A stretch of 64,000 nucleotides of DNA from Armatimonadota bacterium (GTDB lineage Bacteria; Armatimonadota; Zipacnadia; Zipacnadales; JABUFB01), in contig JABUFB010000006.1 of NCBI GenBank assembly GCA_013314775.1, positions 124,001 to 188,000 of the forward strand. The letters run 5' to 3'. The translations under genes and the position numbers were made by a program. A model generated the notes under the pieces. That model saw only the letters and a program-made list of their open reading frames with translations. It made no database searches and had not been told where the DNA came from. The first letter of the stretch is position 1. Every line of letters begins with the position of its first letter. Positions 16,528 through 26,391 of the stretch are shown piece by piece.

Positions 16528-18174
16528 CTACATCATGCCGCCCATGCCACCCATGCCACCCATGCCACCCATATCGGGGGATGGTGTCGGCGGCTCTTCC
16601 TTCTCGATCTCTGCGAGAATGCTCTCGGTGGTCAGCACCATGCTGGCGATGCTTGCGGCATTCTCAAGCGCCGAGCGGGTGACCTTCAACGGGTCGGTAA
16701 TCCCGGCCTTGATCATGTCTTCGAACTCGCCGGTGACTGCGTTGAACCCTGTCTTCGCGCCCTTCTTCAATGCCTGGGCGACGATGACCGAACCCTCGAA
16801 GCCGCCGTTCTCGGCGATCATGCGCATCGGCTGCGCCAGGGCGCTGCGGATAATCTCCACACCGATCTTCTCGTCCTCGTCGGTGACTTCCAGCTCATCC
16901 AGCGCCGCCGCCGAATGCAGGAGAGCTGCGCCGCCGCCGGCGATGATACCCTCCTCCACCGCTGCGCGGGTAGCCGACAGCGCGTCCTCGAACCGGTGCT
17001 TCTTCTCCTTCAGTTCCGTCTCTGTGGCTGCGCCGACCTCGATAACCGCAACGCCGCCCGACAGCTTGGCCAGGCGCTCCTCGAGTTTCTCGCGGTCGTA
17101 GTCGGAATCCGTCTCGGCGATCTGTCGGCGAATCTGCTCGATGCGGCCCTTGATGGACGCGGGGCTTCCCGCACCCTCGACGATGGTGGTATCGTCGGCG
17201 GTCACGGTAACGCGGCCCGCCCGGCCGAGCTGATCCAGCCGGATGCTGTCAAGCTTCAGGCCGAGGTCCTCGGTGATGAAGGTCCCGCCAGTGAGGATCG
17301 CGATGTCCTCGAGCATGGCCTTCCGGCGGTCGCCGAAACCGGGGGCTTTGACTGCTACGGCGTTCAGCGCACCGCGCAGCTTGTTCACGACCAGGGTCGC
17401 CAGTGCCTCGCCCTCCACGTCTTCGCAGATGATCAGCAGTGGACGCCCGGCCTGAAGCACCTGCTCAAGCAGCGGGATGATGTCCATCGCGACGCTGATC
17501 TTCTTCTCATACAGGAGGATGTAGGGCTCCTCGAGCACCGCCGAGAGACTTTCGCGGTTGGTCATCATATACGGGGACAGGTAGCCCTTATCAAACTGCA
17601 TCCCCTCGACAAGTTCCAGCCGGTCCTCGATACTCTTGGACTCCTCGACGGTGATGACCCCGTCCTTGCCCACTTCGGTCATCGCGTCGGCAACCATCGC
17701 GCCAATCAGCTCGGAGTTCCCCGCGATCGATGCCACATTGCGCATTTGGTCCGGGGTCTTGACCTCAACGGCCATGCTCCGCATCTTCTCGATAGTCGCG
17801 GCTACTGCCTTGTCCATCCCGCGCTTCACGAACATTGGATTGGCTCCGGCGGCAATGGCCTTCAGGCCCGCCCGGAGCATGGACTGCGCGAGAACCGTGG
17901 CGGTGGTGGTTCCGTCGCCTGCCACGTCGTTGGTCTTCGACGCCACTTCCTTGAGAAGCTGGGCGCCCATGTTCTCGAACCGGTCCTTCAGCTCGATCTC
18001 CTTGGCCACCGTCACACCGTCCTTGGTGATGGTGGGGGACCCGAACTTCTTCTGCACCAGGACATTGCGGCCGGCTGGTCCAAGCGTCACCTTGACCGCA
18101 TCGGCAACGATGTTCGCACCGCGCTCCAGCGCCCGGCGCGCACTCTCGTCGTACAGTATCTCCTTGGGTGGCAT
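16528..18174 (-). CDS. groL: 60-kDa chaperonin GroEL
   Basis: A 548-residue chaperonin that folds proteins in an ATP-driven double ring with GroES. Conserved elements include [20 protein letters not shown], the ATP-site [12 protein letters not shown], and the terminal Gly-Met repeats [10 protein letters not shown]. The length is normal. It lies 85 bp after groES on the same strand and should share the CIRCE-controlled promoter upstream of groES. Confidence 0.98.
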
Positions 18175-18259
18175 AACTTCACCGTCTCCTTGTGGTCATC
18201 TCTTCTGCACACCACTCACTCGGCCACGCGCGAGATCCGCCGGCCATTACGGGGGCAGA

Positions 18260-18562
18260 TTACTCGTCGTCTTCGAGCGTGGCGTAGATCATGTCGGCGT
18301 CGATGATGATGAGTTCCTCACCATCCGACTTGATCTCGGTTCCACCGTACTTCGCGAACATCACGTGGTCGCCTTCCTTCACGTCAGGCGCCACTAGGCT
18401 GCCGTTGTCCAGACGGCGACCTTCTCCCACTGCAACGACGATCCCGAACTGCGGCTTCTTCTTCGCGCTTTCGGGCAAGTAGATCCCGCCCTGGGTGGAC
18501 TCTGCCTCGTCAGGGCGCACAAGAACGCGGTTGCCTAGAACTTTGAGAGCCGTAATGCGCAC
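18260..18562 (-). CDS. groS: 10-kDa co-chaperonin GroES
   Basis: A roughly 95-100 residue GroEL cap protein: LGNRVLVRPDEAE, QGGIYLPESAKKKPQFGIVVAVGEG, the mobile-loop region, and VMFAKYGGTEI. The start is ambiguous. GTG at 18562 overlaps the only Shine-Dalgarno sequence (AGGGAGGTG), so that site cannot serve it. The same site is 5 nt upstream of ATT (18556) and 8 nt upstream of ACG (18553). Alignment with usual GroES N-termini also favours those positions. The coordinates given are the longest frame. A CIRCE element and promoter lie upstream. Confidence 0.95.
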   Translation of the reverse strand: MRITALKVLGNRVLVRPDEAESTQGGIYLPESAKKKPQFGIVVAVGEGRRLDNGSLVAPDVKEGDHVMFAKYGGTEIKSDGEELIIIDADMIYATLEDDE

Positions 18563-18666
18563 CTCCCTTCGTTTTTTCTGCAGCCCCTATTGCAGCAATT
18601 GAGAGCGGGCGGCAAGCGCCCGCGTCGAGCCTCATGCCGGCCGGCAGCACTCACGCCGGGTGCGTA

Positions 18667-18695
18667 ATCATACCCGTTTTGGCATCCGCATGCAA
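18667..18695 (-). promoter_or_regulatory. Sigma-70-like promoter of groES-groEL
   Basis: On the minus strand TTGCAT (18695-18690) and TATGAT (18672-18667) are separated by exactly 17 bp. This is about 100 bp upstream of groES and directly next to the CIRCE element. Confidence 0.7.
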
Positions 18696-18699
18696 GCTC

Positions 18700-18726
18700 T
18701 TAGCACTCCCATGCGGCCAGTGCTAA
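18700..18726 (-). promoter_or_regulatory. CIRCE operator (HrcA binding site)
   Basis: TTAGCACTC (18700-18708), 9 nt, then CAGTGCTAA (18718-18726). It matches the CIRCE consensus at 17 of 18 inverted-repeat positions. It lies just upstream of the groES -35 box. HrcA, the repressor that reads CIRCE, is not encoded in the window. Confidence 0.9.
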
Positions 18727-18767
18727 CACGCCCCAACCCGCCCCATCTCGCGATGCCTTTTGTCAGG

Positions 18768-18944
18768 TCACTTCCCGCTTCCTTCGCCCCCGCCGAGGGC
18801 GAACAGCACACCGATTGCGGCGCCCATCAGGACGGCCACCACCGGATTGCTGGTCATCGGTCACCCGCCTCCTGCACACGCCGAGGCTCTGTGCAGACCG
18901 TAGCCCACCGCAGCACCGATTATCCCCGCAAGCACAACCTTCAT
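18768..18944 (-). CDS. DUF6132-like small membrane protein with in-frame TGA (candidate selenoprotein)
   Basis: From ATG 18944 the frame reads 27 residues (MKVVLAGIIGAAVGYG...SACAGGG), then TGA at 18863-18861, then in the same frame PMTSNPVVAVLMGAAIGVLFA and a stop at 18768. Read through, the 58-residue product has two hydrophobic helices around CAGGG-TGA-PMTSNP. From my knowledge of DUF6132 proteins, this region is normally CxxGxCPxTSNP. The TGA falls exactly on the second cysteine, with the first at the correct distance, so selenocysteine is the most attractive reading. Alternatives are a real stop (the second half has its own ATG with GGAGG ten bases upstream), a Cys-to-stop mutation or a sequencing error. 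A TTG at 18953 is an alternative start. The gene begins 66 bp after clpB on the same strand. Confidence 0.55.
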
Positions 18945-19009
18945 CCAGAGCAAGCTACCACATGCCTTTCATTCGGTCTCTTTCTTGCGTGCGACACTGA
19001 CAGGGGGCC

Positions 19010-21454
19010 TCAGCCCTCCTGCCCCTCCGCTACCACCAGGCGTAGCTTGATGGCGCCCTCCTGAGCATCCACCTGGATGGTGTCGCCTTCGGCAAACTCG
19101 CCCCGCAGGATCGCGCTGGAAATCGGATTCTCCACCTGTTTCTGGATCACCCGCCGCAAGGGTCTCGCACCGTATGCCGGGTCGTACCCCTCGCTCGCCA
19201 GCAGCCGCCTCGCCGCATCCGTCAGCTGCAGCGACATTCCCCTCTGCTCCAGGGCCTTCCTCACCCGCTCCACCATCAGGTCCACGATCTCCAGTATCTC
19301 GGCTTCAGTGAGTGCGTGGAAGACCACGATCTCGTCGATCCGGTTCAGCAACTCCGGCCGGAACACGTCCCGCAGCGCGGCCACCACTTCGTCGCGCATT
19401 TGCTCATAGTGCTCCTGGCGTCTCTCCGCGTCCCAGTCAGGCTGGGGCGGGCTGATAAACTGGCTGCCCACGTTCGAGGTCATGATCAGAACCGTGTTGT
19501 TGAAGTTCACAACACGCCCGGTGTTGTCAGTGAGCCGCCCGTCCTCAAGAATCTGCAACAGTATGTTGAAGACATCCGGGTGCGCCTTCTCAATCTCATC
19601 CAGCAGGATCACCCGGTACGGCCTGCGCCGCACCGCTTCTGTGAGCTGCCCGCCTTCCTCATAGCCCACATACCCCGGGGGCGCGCCGATGAGCCGCGAC
19701 ACTGCGTGCCGCTCCATGTACTCGCTCATGTCGATGCGAACCATGGCATCCTCGTCGTCGAACAGGAACTCGGCAAGCGCCTTGGCAAGCTCGGTCTTCC
19801 CGACCCCGGTCGGCCCCAGGAAGATGAAGGAGCCGATCGGCCGCCGCGGATCGCTCAGACCGGCGCGCGAACGCCGGATCGCTTCGGAGATCGCCACCAC
19901 CGCCTCATCCTGTCCCTTCACCCGGCGATGCAGCCGCTCTTCCATGCGCAGCAGCTTCTGCGCTTCTTCTTCAAACATCCGCGTGACCGGGATACCGGTC
20001 CATTCCGAGACGATCTGCGCAATGTCTTCGGCATCCACCACATCGTCCAGTTGCTCCACCCCGGCCCACTTCTCTTCCGCGACAGGTAGCCGCGCCGTAA
20101 GGTCGTCGATCTGCGCCTTGATCCGGTGTGCTTCCTCATACCGCCCCTGCGCAGCGGCATCCTGGCCCTGTTGGGTGAGTCGCTGGATTTCCTCCCGGAT
20201 CGCTTCGGGCTTCGGTGGCAAGTCGTAGGTCTCGATGCGCAGCTTGCTCGCCGCCTCGTCCACAAGGTCGATGGCCTTGTCCGGCATCTTGCGGTCGGAA
20301 ATGTACCGGTCCGACAGTTGTGCCGCGGCCAGCAGGGCCTCGTCGGATATGCGCACCCCGTGGTGCTCCTCGTACCGCGACCGCAACCCTTCCAGGATCT
20401 TCACCGTGTCCTCGACACTGGGCTCGTCGACGAACACCGGTTGGAACCGTCGCTCCAGCGCCGGGTCCTTTTCGATGTTCTCCCGGTATTCATCCAGCGT
20501 GGTCGCGCCGATGCACCGCATCTCGCCCCTTGCCAGGGCCGGCTTGAGCATATTCGAAGCATCCATCGCGCCTTCGGCAGCCCCGGCGCCAACCACCGTG
20601 TGTATCTCGTCGATGAAGACGATGATCTCGCCCTGCGCGGCGCGGATTTCGTCGATAACGCCCTTCAGCCGCTCCTCAAACTCGCCTCGGTACTTGCTCC
20701 CCGCCACCATGCTCGCCAGGTCCAGCGCAACCAGCTTCCGGTTCTGCAGCATCTCCGGCACGTTGCCGCTGACGATTTCCTGTGCCAGCCCCTCCACCAC
20801 CGCGGTCTTGCCAACCCCCGCGTCCCCGATAAGCACCGGGTTGTTCTTGGTGCGTCGCGACAGCACCTGGATGAGCCGCTTGATCTCCTTCTCGCGCCCG
20901 ATCACCGGGTCCAGCTTGCCCTCTCGCGCCAGGGCCGTCAGGTCCCGCGAGAATCGCTTCAAGGCTTCGTACTTGGACTCGGCGCCCGCGTCTGTCACTG
21001 AGTGGCTCCCCCGCAGGCCCTGCAGGGCCTTGAGGGTAGTCTCGATGGTGACTCCCGCCGAGGTGAGTATTCGCGCTGCCGGGGTCTGCCCGTCCTCGAG
21101 GATCGCCAGAAACAAGTGCTCGGTGGCGATGAACTGGTCGCCAAAACGCTGGCACACTTCCCACGCCTTGTCGAAGATCCGGCTGGTGTGCGGGGTTATG
21201 TAGATCTGCTGGGTGTCTCCGCCGCCCACCTGCACCTGGGGCCGGCTGCCCAGCTCGCGCTCAACCTGGTGCGTCAACCGGTCGACATCCACGCCCTGTT
21301 CCGCGAGAATCCGCGGAACCGTGCCTTTCTCTTGCTCCAGCATCGCCAGCAGGATATGCTCGGCGTCCAGTTGGTTGTGCTTATACCGCTGCAGCAGTTG
21401 CTGGCTGTGTGCAACGACTTCCTTCGCTGCGTTGGTCAATCGCTCGAAATCCAT
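19010..21454 (-). CDS. clpB: AAA+ disaggregase/unfoldase ClpB/ClpC family
   Basis: An 814-residue Hsp100 protein. It has a Clp N-domain with two repeats (about residues 1-145). The first AAA+ module has [15 protein letters not shown] and VIFIDEIH-type Walker B sequence ([10 protein letters not shown]). The middle region is short and contains an [14 protein letters not shown] segment. The second AAA+ module has [16 protein letters not shown] and [13 protein letters not shown]. The short middle domain and UVR-like segment resemble ClpC, while the heat-shock context with dnaK, dnaJ and hspR suggests a ClpB role. No ClpP-loop argument could be made. It is the last large gene of the HspR cluster. 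Confidence 0.93.
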
Positions 21455-21503
21455 GGGTTCTCACTTCGCTTCGAAGCCCTCGCTCGCCACCGCGGGGCAT
21501 GTG

Positions 21504-21746
21504 TCATGGGTCGCTGTTACCGATCGCGTCTTCGTTCTCGCGCAGCAGTGCCGGCGCCTCGTGCGCCCGGTCCTCTGGAACCATCACACGCATCGGAGCA
21601 ATCCTCGCTCCGCTCACGTACGCCCCGAGGGTGAACGTCGGAATGCTGTGCACGGGGATTCCGCTCGCGCGCAGCTTGGCCGCTGCAGGATCCGCGTTCG
21701 TGTCGCCGAAGCCCGGGCTGAAACCAGCCTCCTGTACCCAGCCCAC
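21504..21746 (-). CDS. Small DUF2007-like protein between hspR and clpB
   Basis: From GTG at 21746 the frame gives 80 residues. It contains ADPAAAKLRASGIPVHS followed later by MRVMVPEDRAHEAPALL. This resembles the DUF2007 fold: an 'AeLakalLeaaGIpv' helix, then a strand and 'VpeedaeeAraiL'. DUF2007 proteins are small and of unknown, possibly regulatory, function. An upstream AGGGGAGCAGG lies in the 34-bp gap after hspR, a little far from the GTG. Longer frames reaching 21857 overlap hspR and look non-coding. The call rests on partial similarity and tight cluster position. Confidence 0.55.
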   Translation of the reverse strand: MGWVQEAGFSPGFGDTNADPAAAKLRASGIPVHSIPTFTLGAYVSGARIAPMRVMVPEDRAHEAPALLRENEDAIGNSDP

Positions 21747-21780
21747 CGGCCCGGCCGCTTTTTCCTGCTCCCCTGGGGGC

Positions 21781-22149
21781 TCAGAATTGCCTCGGCTGCT
21801 CCTCAGTCTGAATCTCAACGCGGACTCCACGGCTTGCCGGCAGGCTCTTCGGGCCATGCTCGATCAGATCCCGCAGACGTTCGATCTCCATCTGCTGCTG
21901 CTCGATCTGATCCAGCAGCTTGAGCACGATTTCCACCCCGGCCAGATTCACCCCGAGTTCCTGGGTGAGCCGCTGGATCTGCCCGAGTCGCTCGATATCG
22001 CGTTGGGAGTACAGGCGCACATTGCTCCGGGTGCGCCTGGGGTTCACCAGGCCCAGCCGCTCGTACGTCCGCAAGGTCTGGGGGTGGCACTGAACCAGCC
22101 GCGCGGCCACACTGATGTAGTACACCGGCTCGTCATTGGCGTGCGTCAT
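21781..22149 (-). CDS. hspR: Heat-shock repressor HspR (MerR family)
   Basis: A 122-residue MerR-type regulator. The winged-helix region reads YYISVAARLVQCHPQTLRTYERLGLV, then RLYSQRDIERL, followed by a coiled dimerisation helix (LDQIEQQQMEIERLRDLI). This matches HspR, which represses dnaK operons by binding HAIR elements and uses DnaK as co-repressor in actinobacteria. It lies 26 bp after dnaJ with a clear TGGAGG site. A HAIR-like operator precedes dnaK in this window, so autoregulation of the whole cluster is likely. Confidence 0.93.
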   Translation of the reverse strand: MTHANDEPVYYISVAARLVQCHPQTLRTYERLGLVNPRRTRSNVRLYSQRDIERLGQIQRLTQELGVNLAGVEIVLKLLDQIEQQQMEIERLRDLIEHGPKSLPASRGVRVEIQTEEQPRQF

Positions 22150-22174
22150 ATGTTACCTCCACATCCAGGTCGTC

Positions 22175-23293
22175 TCACTTCAAAGTCGTCGGCAGGTCCG
22201 CCCGCGGATCCTCATCCGTCACCCGCTCCAGTTCCTCCAGAAGCTCCCGCTGCTCCTTGCTCAGGCGCCGCGGAGGGACGATGGCCACGCGGACGAACTG
22301 GTCGGCGCGATTGCGGCTTCCAGGTATCTGGGGTCCCTGTCCGCGCAGCCGGAACTTCTGACCGCTCTTGGTCCCGGGTGGGATCTTCAGACTCACCTGG
22401 CCGTCAACCGTGGGCACACTGATCTTGGCACCCAGGGCCGCCTCCGTGAAGGATATCGGGACCTCGACCTCCACATCATCCCCCACGCGTTGGAAGAACG
22501 GGTGTTCCTGCACCTTGATTTGGAGGATCAGGTCGCCATTTGGGCCGCCATTGATGCCGCGGCCACCCTCGCCGGCCAGCCGGATCTTGCTCCCGGTCTT
22601 GACCCCGGGCGGCACCTTCACCTTGATCTGCCGCTCCCGCAGGACCTCACCGCCGCCCCGACATTTCGGGCACTGAGATACGACCATTTCTCCGGTTCCC
22701 TGGCAGTGCGGGCAGGCCCCCGCCATGCCGAAGATCCCGCTGCGCGCGCTCTGCCCCGTGCCGCCACAGGTGGGGCAGGTCTGGGTCTTCCCGCCGACAC
22801 CGCCGCACTCGGGGCAGACGTCCGCGATGCTCAGGTTGAGCTCTTTCTGGGTTCCGCGTACGGCTTCGGCGAAGGTCAGCGTCAGCTCGTGCGCAATGTT
22901 CGCGCCACGTTGCGGCTGGGGCTGCACCCGCGCTCTTTGCCTTCCCGACGACCGCCCGAAATCCCCGAAAATACTGCCGAAAATCTCCTCGAATGTCCCC
23001 GCTCCGAAGTTGGTGTACACAAAGTCCCGGACGTCGCCGCCCTGCCACTGCCCGCTTTGCTGGGCCTGTTGCCAGGCGGTCCCGAACTGATCATACTTCC
23101 TCCGCTTTTCCGGGTCGTTGAGCACCTCGAAGGCCTGGCTGATCTGCTTGTACTTTTCTTCAGCCGCCTTGTCCCCCGGGTTCACGTCGGGGTGATACTT
23201 GCGCGCGAGCTTGCGGTACGCCTTCTTGATTTCATCCGGAGACGCATCTCGCCGCACGCCAAGCAATTCGTAGAAATCTACTGTCGCGTCCAT
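22175..23293 (-). CDS. dnaJ: Chaperone DnaJ
   Basis: A 372-residue type I Hsp40. The J domain (residues 5-70) has the catalytic YHPDVN (HPD). A Gly/Phe region follows ([17 protein letters not shown]). Four zinc-binding CxxCxGxG repeats are present ([32 protein letters not shown]). The C-terminal peptide-binding domains are complete. It delivers clients to DnaK and stimulates its ATPase. It sits between hsp20 and hspR in the cluster. No grpE gene is present in the window. Confidence 0.97.
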
Positions 23294-23335
23294 AGGATCT
23301 CGCCGCTGTATTTCGTTGTTTCGCGCTCCATCCGT

Positions 23336-23758
23336 CTACCCGTTCTCGACCCGGATTGGAACCTCCACCGGCCCCTTCGGCCTTGCCTCCAGACGCCCCA
23401 CCTTCACCGTGAGCACGCCCTGTTTCAGACTCGCGGACACCTTCGACACATCCGCATCCGAGGGCAGCGGAATGACCCTCGCGAAGGACCCGGCCTTCCG
23501 CTCTGACCTGAGCAGCCTGCCCACAGGCGGTTGCCTCTTACCCGCCACCCTCAGCACGCCCTCGTCAGCCACCACGCGCACGCTCTCCGCGGTCACTCCG
23601 GGGACGTCGCACCGGACGATATACTCGTCAGCCGTCCGCGTGACGTCGGTCGGCGGCGCGAATGACGGGGCCGCCGGCCGCGACTTGCCTGCCGCGATAG
23701 CGTCCCGGAAAACCCGGTCGAATTGCTCCTGCAATTCCAGCACATCACCGAAGCGCAT
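23336..23758 (-). CDS. Small heat-shock protein Hsp20 (first copy upstream of dnaJ)
   Basis: A 140-residue alpha-crystallin domain protein: PPTDVTRTADEYIVRCDVPGV, FARVIPLPSDADVSKVSASLKQGVLTVKV (the A-x-x-x-n-GVL motif) and a C-terminal VEVPIRV, resembling the IxI/V oligomerisation motif. It holds unfolding proteins for DnaK/ClpB. It lies 42 bp before dnaJ and 52 bp after a second, divergent hsp20 gene. Confidence 0.92.
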   Translation of the reverse strand: MRFGDVLELQEQFDRVFRDAIAAGKSRPAAPSFAPPTDVTRTADEYIVRCDVPGVTAESVRVVADEGVLRVAGKRQPPVGRLLRSERKAGSFARVIPLPSDADVSKVSASLKQGVLTVKVGRLEARPKGPVEVPIRVENG

Positions 23759-23810
23759 GTCTCACCGCCTGCCATCTCTTCCTGGCCGATTCATGCTCCG
23801 CAGGTCCGCC

Positions 23811-24191
23811 TCACCGCCGCGCCACCACTGTCAGCACGCCCGCCTCCAGGGCCGCATTGACCTCTGAAGGCTCGAAGGCCAGGCTGAAGGACCTGGAAAA
23901 CCTCCCCGCCGGCCGCTCAGCCACCAGAAACTGCTCGCCCTCACCGTCGCGTTCCCGCATGCCGTCAATCGTCAACACGTTGCCGTCGAGCACCACATTG
24001 ATGCTCTCCCGGGTCATTCCGCAGACCTCAAGCTCCACCACGATGCCATCTTCGGTGGCGCGGATGTCCGCTGGCGGCGTCCACCGCCGGCCAACCGGAG
24101 CAGGCTGGACCGGGAAGGCCTCGTCCAGTAGGGATCGCAGCCGAACTCGCAGCCGGGCAATGTCCTCATATCGCCGATCCAGATAGGCCAC
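23811..24191 (-). CDS. Small heat-shock protein Hsp20 (second copy)
   Basis: A 126-residue alpha-crystallin domain protein: PADIRATEDGIVVELEVCGM, RFSRSFSLAFEPSEVNAALEAGVLTVVARR. It is only modestly similar to its neighbour and lacks a C-terminal IxI tail, so the two may form hetero-oligomers or differ in assembly. It lies 189 bp after dnaK; the gap holds a strong hairpin. Confidence 0.9.
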   Translation of the reverse strand: MAYLDRRYEDIARLRVRLRSLLDEAFPVQPAPVGRRWTPPADIRATEDGIVVELEVCGMTRESINVVLDGNVLTIDGMRERDGEGEQFLVAERPAGRFSRSFSLAFEPSEVNAALEAGVLTVVARR

Positions 24192-24335
24192 GTCGCATCA
24201 CCTGCTACCCCTGACTTGGGGGACTGGCATCCCAGCTCGCGCCGTGTGCGAACTTGATGCCAGTGCCCCATGCACAGCGACTCGTTGCTTCATCGTGCCC
24301 ACCCACGCCGTCTATTGCAGAGCGGGCCCCGGCAT

Positions 24336-24362
24336 CCAGGTCCGAGCCTCACCCGGACCTGG
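24336..24362 (-). terminator. 9-bp hairpin after dnaK
   Basis: CCAGGTCCG (24336-24344) pairs with CGGACCTGG (24354-24362) across 9 nt, and GGCA/TGCC outside extends it with one bulge. It lies between dnaK and the hsp20 genes, so it could end most dnaK transcripts or protect their 3' ends. Confidence 0.45.
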
Positions 24363-24380
24363 TGCCTGTACCCAATGCGG

Positions 24381-26249
24381 CTACTTGTCTTCCGCCTCGA
24401 ACTCGCCCTCGATCACGTCGTCACCCACTGAAGACGCATGAGGCGCCCCTGTTGCCGCAGGTCCCGGCTCAGGCGCGGGTCCGGCGCTGCTGGCCTGCTC
24501 ATACATCCGCTGGGACACTTGCGAGAACTCCTGGTTCACCGCATCGATAGCCGCCCGGATCGCCGCCGCGTCCTCACCTTTCACACTCTCGCGCAGGGCC
24601 TCGATCTTCTCCTTGATCGCGGTCCGGTCGGACTCGGCAACCTTGTCCCCAAGCTCATTCAGCGTCTTCTCCAGCTGGTAGGCAACCTGGTCGCCCTGGT
24701 TGCGGGCGTCTGCCAGTTCTTTGAACTTCTTGTCCTCAGCCGCGTGGGCCTCGGCCTCCTGCACCATCCTCTTCACTTCTTCGTCTGACAGCTGGCCCGA
24801 GCCGGTAATGGTGATCGACTGCTGCTTGCCTGTGGCCTTGTCCTGGGCCGACACGTTCAGGATGCCGTTGGCGTCGATGTCGAAGGTGACCTCGATCTTC
24901 GGCATGCCCCGCGGAGCGGGTGGGATGCCCGTGAGGTGGAACCGACCCAGAGACTTGTTCTGGCTGGCCCGCGGACGCTCGCCTTGCAGCACGTGCACCT
25001 CAACCGTGGTCTGCATGTCGCTTGCGGTACTGTAGGTGCGGGTCTCCCGGGTCGGAATATTGGTGTTGCGCTGGATCACCGGGTCCATGACGTCGCCCAG
25101 CGTCTCCACTCCCAGCGTCAGCGGGGTAACGTCCATCAGAACGATGTCCTGGGTCTCGTCACCCGAAAGCACTGCCGCCTGGATCGCAGCGCCAACCGCC
25201 ACAACCTCGTCCGGATTGATGCCCTTCTTCGGCTCCTTTCCGGTGAGCTTGCGGACCATCTCCTGCACCATCGGGATGCGGGTCGATCCGCCCACGAGAA
25301 TGACCTCATCCACCTCGCCGTACTTCAAGCCCGCTTCCTTCATGGCGTCCTCAACCGACACCTGGGTCTTCTGCACCAGGTCGCCGATCAACTCCTCGAG
25401 CTTCGCCCGAGTCAGGGTCATCTCCAGGTGCTTCGGGCCCTCACCATCCACAGAAGTGATGAAGGGCAGGCTGATGGAGGTGGTCACCTGCGAGGACAAC
25501 TCGCACTTGGCCTTCTCCGCCGCTTCCTTCAGCCGCTGGAGCGCCTGCCGGTCCTTGCGCAGGTCAACGCCGTTCTCCTTCTTGAACTCCTCCGCCACGT
25601 AATCGATGATCCGCTGGTCGAAATCATCCCCGCCCAGGTGGGTGTCCCCCGACGTGGCAAGCACCTGGTACGCATCGCGCTCATCAGTGCCAACTTCGAT
25701 GTCCAGGATTGAGACGTCGAAAGTCCCGCCACCCAGGTCATAGACCATAATCGTGGCTTCCTTCTTCTCCGTGGTCTTCCAGCCGTATGCCAACGCCGCC
25801 GCCGTCGGCTCGTTGATGATGCGCAGTACTTCGAGCCCGGCGATCTCCCCCGCTTGTTTGGTGGCGGTGCGCTGAGTATCGTTGAAATATGCGGGCACCG
25901 TAATGACCGCTTGCTTTACCGGCTCGCCCAGGTACGCCTCGGCGTCTGCCTTGATCTTGGACAGGATCATCGCCGAAATCTGCTCGGGCGTATAATCCTT
26001 GCCGTCAATCGTGGTCGTGTGACGGGTGCCCATCACGCGCTTGATCGAGCTGATGGTGCGCTCCGGGTTGAGGATCGCCTGACGCTTGGCCGTCTGGCCA
26101 ACAAGGCGCTCCCCGGTCTTCGAGAACGAAACCACCGACGGGGTGGTGCGGCCGCCATCGGAGTTCACGATGACAGTGGGCTCCCCCGCTTCCACAACCG
26201 CGACACAGGAGTTCGTCGTGCCTAGGTCAATTCCCACCGCTTTTGCCAT
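24381..26249 (-). CDS. dnaK: Chaperone DnaK (Hsp70)
   Basis: A 622-residue Hsp70. The N-terminal ATPase has [27 protein letters not shown] and [12 protein letters not shown]. The substrate-binding domain includes the linker [16 protein letters not shown]. The C-terminal lid ends in an acidic tail ([12 protein letters not shown]). ATG at 26249 is chosen because it gives the standard [12 protein letters not shown] start and has GAAAGGTG upstream; an upstream ATG adds 16 unrelated residues. It is the first gene of the HspR cluster, behind the consensus promoter at 26363-26391 with a leader of about 107 nt. Confidence 0.98.
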
Positions 26250-26362
26250 GGATGAACACACCTTTCCGGACTGACAGAAAGTGAGGGCACGCGCCACAGC
26301 GATACTTGGTCGCGATGCCCGGCGTCAGGCGAGTCAACGCTCGCTCCATATCATGCCCGGAT

Positions 26363-26391
26363 TATAAATGTTGAGTGTATTACTGTCAAGG
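26363..26391 (-). promoter_or_regulatory. Consensus sigma-70 promoter of dnaK
   Basis: On the minus strand the -35 is TTGACA (26391-26386) and the -10 is TATAAT (26368-26363), exactly 17 bp apart. Both boxes are perfect consensus. The HAIR-like operator overlaps the -35 and spacer. Confidence 0.9.

Follow-up and report, generated by a model that had tools for sequence, protein, structure and literature searches.

A DUF6132-family gene with a conserved in-frame TGA, very probably read as selenocysteine, beside the heat-shock genes of an Armatimonadota lineage

Does the TGA inside a short frame among the chaperone genes of an Armatimonadota bacterium end translation, or does it encode selenocysteine (Sec)? 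The frame lies in a 64,000-nucleotide stretch of one contig, hereafter the window (coordinates in the table). Translation verified both the position and the motif, CAGGG-TGA-PMTSNP, that a sequence-only reading had reported: on the minus strand from 18944 to 18768, one frame reads MKVVLAGIIGAAVGYGLHRASACAGGG-[TGA]-PMTSNPVVAVLMGAAIGVLFALGGGEGSGK and ends in TGA. The predicted full product is 58 amino acids long with Sec28, running from an ATG at 18944-18942 to the terminal TGA at 18770-18768, with a TTG at 18953-18951 as a possible alternative start. Its motif is C23-A-G-G-G-TGA28-P-M-T-S-N-P; the window holds a single copy of the pattern CxxGx-TGA-PxTSNP, which none of 100 dinucleotide shuffles contained. 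With the TGA read as Cys, residues 2-52 match Pfam DUF6132 (PF19628) at E 1.2e-7 and 31.7 bits against a curated cut-off of 23.2 bits, which bears out the earlier call of a DUF6132-like protein. A six-frame search of the genome with DUF6132 recovered the same gene with one TGA inside. NCBIfam holds no model that matches the protein.

The same TGA is found in relatives. We label the window's own genome G000 (6.12 Mb, 37 contigs, 98.5% complete) and compare it with G001 (Armatimonadetes bacterium Gw_SlDig_bin_68) from the same genus, G002 (Candidatus Zipacnadia bacterium AB_3033_Bin_153) from the same family, and G003 from a third genus of the family; all four are draft assemblies, two of them labelled MAGs. 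Among 60 relatives, a DUF6132 search recovered homologues with the TGA from G001 and G002, and a profile built from these two and the window protein found a fourth in G003, MTWWQPVLGAVIGALVGLGLNRLSTCAGGG-TGA-PMTSNPWVAM, with one TGA. The TGA occupies the same column in four of the four family genomes searched, across three genera and at protein identities to the window protein down to 54-57%, and the Cys23 position is Cys in every one. Read with TGA as Cys, the G001 and G002 homologues score 29.9 and 25.1 bits against DUF6132, above the cut-off; the G003 homologue, at 18.1 bits, falls below it. Between the window gene and that of G001, 37 codons are identical, 16 differ synonymously and 5 nonsynonymously; upstream of the TGA the changes are 12 synonymous versus 1 nonsynonymous, and the nine codons that follow the TGA hold a single base difference. 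Further profile matches in G038, G243 and G025, and a second one in G003, look like chance frames.

How far does the TGA form extend? When 84,980 GTDB species genomes were scanned with a DNA pattern for it, 19 loci came back. Only those in G001 and G002 look like DUF6132, so within the limits of this strict DNA pattern the TGA form appears restricted to this family-level Armatimonadota lineage. Most of the hits are chance matches. No Sec form of DUF6132 turned up in the phage and plasmid collections searched. A contig search with the window protein gave no related loci, a blank at least partly explained by its patterns, which had a Cys codon at the TGA.

Outside the family, the position of the TGA is held by cysteine. 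Among 291 genomes of the phylum, TGA-free DUF6132 forms turned up in G261 (motif TGGGCPLTCSP, over the DUF6132 cut-off) and G276 (GSQCMLMCNP, below it), and a Riemerella plasmid carries a further Cys-form, CSTGTCAITSKP. All three have Cys in the TGA column, which in an alignment of seven sequences is C or U and one of five invariant columns. The comparison of homologues that had been proposed as a check on Sec therefore gives Cys outside the family and TGA within it. The first Cys, at the Cys23 position, is absent from the G261 and G276 forms.

The machinery for Sec insertion is encoded in the same genome, where selA, selB, selC and selD, the genes the sequence-only reading had suggested looking for, are all present. 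The matches score 550.8 bits for selA, 345.4/382.6 bits for selB (over cut-off) and 382.1 bits for selD. Selenoprotein SelD carries the motif UxxK (PMC13188914 Table 1), and the selD gene of G000 itself has one internal TGA, in the context LTKMASAAG-TGA-AAKLEPEAL, which is where SelD usually carries its Sec. ARAGORN placed a tRNA-Sec gene about 100 nt downstream of this selD. Each of G000-G003 has a tRNA-Sec (71.6-73.2 bits, anticodon TCA) as well as Sec-type selD and selB over cut-off; selA was not found in G001, whose assembly is 85% complete. In the Cys-form genomes G261 and G276, no tRNA-Sec was detected (the tRNA-Sec model matched tRNA-Gly, tRNA-Ser and tRNA-Leu best) and no selD scored over cut-off; selB had no match in G261 and a partial one, below cut-off, in G276. 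With completeness at 72% and 67%, the apparent lack of the Sec trait in these two genomes is suggestive only.

Bacterial Sec insertion elements (bSECIS) are defined by a loop of 3-9 nt with G in its first two positions, lying 16-37 nt from the UGA, and an MFE of -7.5 or lower (PMC13188914). In the window gene the 57 nt after the UGA form one long hairpin of -29.8 kcal/mol that agrees with this definition in loop, spacing, G position and energy, so the bSECIS prediction proposed earlier as a check came out in favour of Sec. The stem-loop had been described as "not strong", but with about 60 nt included the fold proves strong, with an MFE of -30.5 and z of -3.4 against dinucleotide shuffles. The G001 hairpin (loop UGCUC, 31 nt from the UGA) also fits the definition, as do several candidate hairpins in G003 at 16-34 nt. 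The best fold of G002 has the loop CACGAUUU, without G in its first two positions; G comes first in the loop only in a suboptimal fold that is 6 kcal/mol weaker. Compared with 1000 synonymous recodings, the 57-nt fold gives z scores of -2.0, -1.3, -4.6 and -1.6 in the four species, and the window fold is lower than 97.4% of its recodings. The consensus fold of the four genes has a slightly unfavourable covariation term of +0.63, with six pairs changed on both sides and several pairs broken. The recoding scores thus support a downstream RNA structure in all four genes, whereas a hairpin shape common to the genera is not supported, covariation giving it no net backing.

Could the TGA be anything other than a Sec codon? 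As an ordinary stop it would leave a 27-residue product functional alone, and what lies downstream would be a relic or an independent small ORF. UGA does serve as a normal stop in this genome and terminates this very gene. Yet the PxTSNP motif and second helix persist beyond the internal TGA in the four genomes, which span three genera; the DUF6132 profile runs through the TGA; the frame shows no further stop and no frameshift; and the TGA falls exactly in the invariant Cys column, all of which makes termination very unlikely. A pseudogene, or a sequencing or assembly error in a TGC or TGT cysteine codon, might be suspected in draft assemblies. Three assemblies besides that of the window have the same TGA, which excludes the sequencing error named earlier as a possible refutation; the recurrence in four separately assembled genomes and the predominance of synonymous changes upstream, relative to G001, leave decay or error scarcely credible.

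Readthrough of the UGA by other means, through a near-cognate tRNA or Trp insertion, would accord with the lack of a single SECIS shape common to the four genes. Against it, Sec machinery including tRNA-Sec is present in the family, the replaced residue is Cys, and Cys-forms occur where tRNA-Sec was not found; in most known Sec/Cys pairs, Sec stands in place of Cys. We consider such readthrough highly improbable. Every computable check that the sequence-only reading had proposed (machinery, conserved TGA, Cys homologues and bSECIS) was favourable, and with the observed frame and homology these indicate from sequence that UGA codon 28 is very probably decoded as selenocysteine.

The gene sits in a minus-strand run of chaperone genes, named from their translations: dnaK, two hsp20, dnaJ, hspR, clpB, the DUF6132-family gene, groES and groEL. 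It had been placed directly after an HspR/clpB cluster; hspR and clpB do precede it, and groES-groEL then follow. This chaperone cluster, at window positions 16528-26297, is almost complete, and a weak HAIR-like repeat lies before dnaK at 26370-26390. G002 and G003 also have clpB beside the gene, in G003 with one small ORF intervening. In G001 the contig begins just upstream of the gene, and groES-groEL adjoin it. The window and G001 each have a CIRCE operator between the gene and groES; in G002 one stands ahead of groEL. From the CIRCE position, groESL is probably transcribed separately and the DUF6132-family gene with clpB; the region 18500-19200 yielded no terminator-like or sigma-70-like site. 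In both G002 and G003 a second small membrane protein, similar to this one and without a Pfam match, is encoded next (..LNVPALALSLGVIWGATVLLMTWLNSMTGG..; L074 1000-1392, L071 3934-4269).

Table. Positions of the features discussed (window coordinates unless a locus is named).
Feature	Position	Strand	Basis or remark
DUF6132-family gene, predicted selenoprotein	18768..18944	-	translation; Pfam PF19628 match; TGA homologues in three other genomes
In-frame TGA, codon 28, predicted to be read as selenocysteine	18861..18863	-	TGA in 4/4 family genomes
TGT codon, Cys23, likely partner of Sec28 (CxxGxU)	18876..18878	-	Cys in 4/4 family genomes
Putative bSECIS hairpin, apical loop UGAU 31 nt after UGA	18804..18852	-	MFE and bSECIS criteria
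CIRCE operator, one mismatch, between DUF6132-family gene and groES	18700..18726	.	
groES	18260..18562	-	ORF translation; also adjoins DUF6132-family gene in G001
groEL	16528..18174	-	ORF translation
clpB	19010..21454	-	65 nt upstream of DUF6132-family gene
hspR-type MerR-family regulator, upstream of clpB	21781..22149	-	resemblance of ORF translation, no family search
selD in-frame TGA	L012 4744-4746 (G000 contig C9)		
tRNA-Sec gene, after selD	L012 5841-5938 (G000 contig C9)		

What might the protein do? We propose that the product is a DUF6132-family protein of 58 residues, predicted to form a helical hairpin in the membrane, and that SelB and tRNA-Sec decode UGA 28 under the direction of the RNA hairpin just downstream. 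Insertion would then follow the known SelB/SECIS route. Sec would close the first helix, five positions on from Cys23, in place of the DUF6132 cysteine; AlphaFold models two helices (2-27 and 34-53) and puts Sec in the turn between them. The model is of low confidence (pLDDT 63), too weak for fold searches. The most economical guess is that Cys23 and Sec28 act together at the membrane surface, either as a redox-active pair (selenenylsulfide) or as a binding site for a soft metal, for which we see about an even chance. The heat-shock link of the locus suggests a stress role, and the gene probably shares a stress-controlled transcript with clpB. A bolder and rather unlikely proposal is that this previously unlisted family, found in one Armatimonadota family in the data searched, sets Sec in a heat-shock-linked membrane helical hairpin that serves as a selenium-dependent redox or metal sensor alongside ClpB and GroESL.

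The protein shares with Cys-form DUF6132 proteins its length, two-helix layout, CxxGx[C/U]PxTSNP motif and a score over the Pfam cut-off, but is predicted to have Sec for the conserved second Cys. Its gene is linked to clpB and groESL, whereas the Riemerella plasmid gene, the only annotated outside context seen, follows one for a heavy-metal-associated (HMA)-domain protein. Like the bacterial MerT-type mercuric transport selenoprotein (PF02411), which has a C/SxxU motif (PMC13188914 Table 1), it is a predicted membrane protein with a Cys/Sec pair, and the HMA-domain neighbour in Riemerella adds to the likeness. The two differ in Pfam family and motif, the Cys-Sec gap being four residues in the window protein and two in MerT, and no metal-transport genes were seen at the window locus. 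With the Sec-SelD of its own genome the gene shares an in-frame TGA and would share the decoding machinery. The selD genes of G000-G003, however, have one clear hairpin, CUCGCAG-GUY-CUGCGAG, conserved in four of four genomes with loop GUY at 33 nt after the UGA (GUC in G000), whereas the DUF6132 hairpins differ between genera.

DUF6132 is absent from the 119 prokaryotic selenoprotein families and subfamilies tabulated in a 2026 review (PMC13188914), so this gene would add a family beyond that table and NCBIfam. Given that absence from both, annotation pipelines probably truncate or miss the gene. The sole text match for DUF6132 in the literature searched concerns DUF6/EamA transporters and, judged from its title, is a chance match; no paper was found there that pairs Armatimonadota with selenocysteine. 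The predicted Sec singles out the chemically reactive residue in this small, uncharacterised membrane family, and so offers a direct handle on DUF6132 function. These genomes also document Sec use in Armatimonadota without a detected formate dehydrogenase alpha subunit (TIGR01591), which was found in none of G000-G003. G001 further carries, on contig C351 (L082), a partial second selB with a second tRNA-Sec (68 bits) immediately behind it; the two represent either a second Sec locus or contamination.
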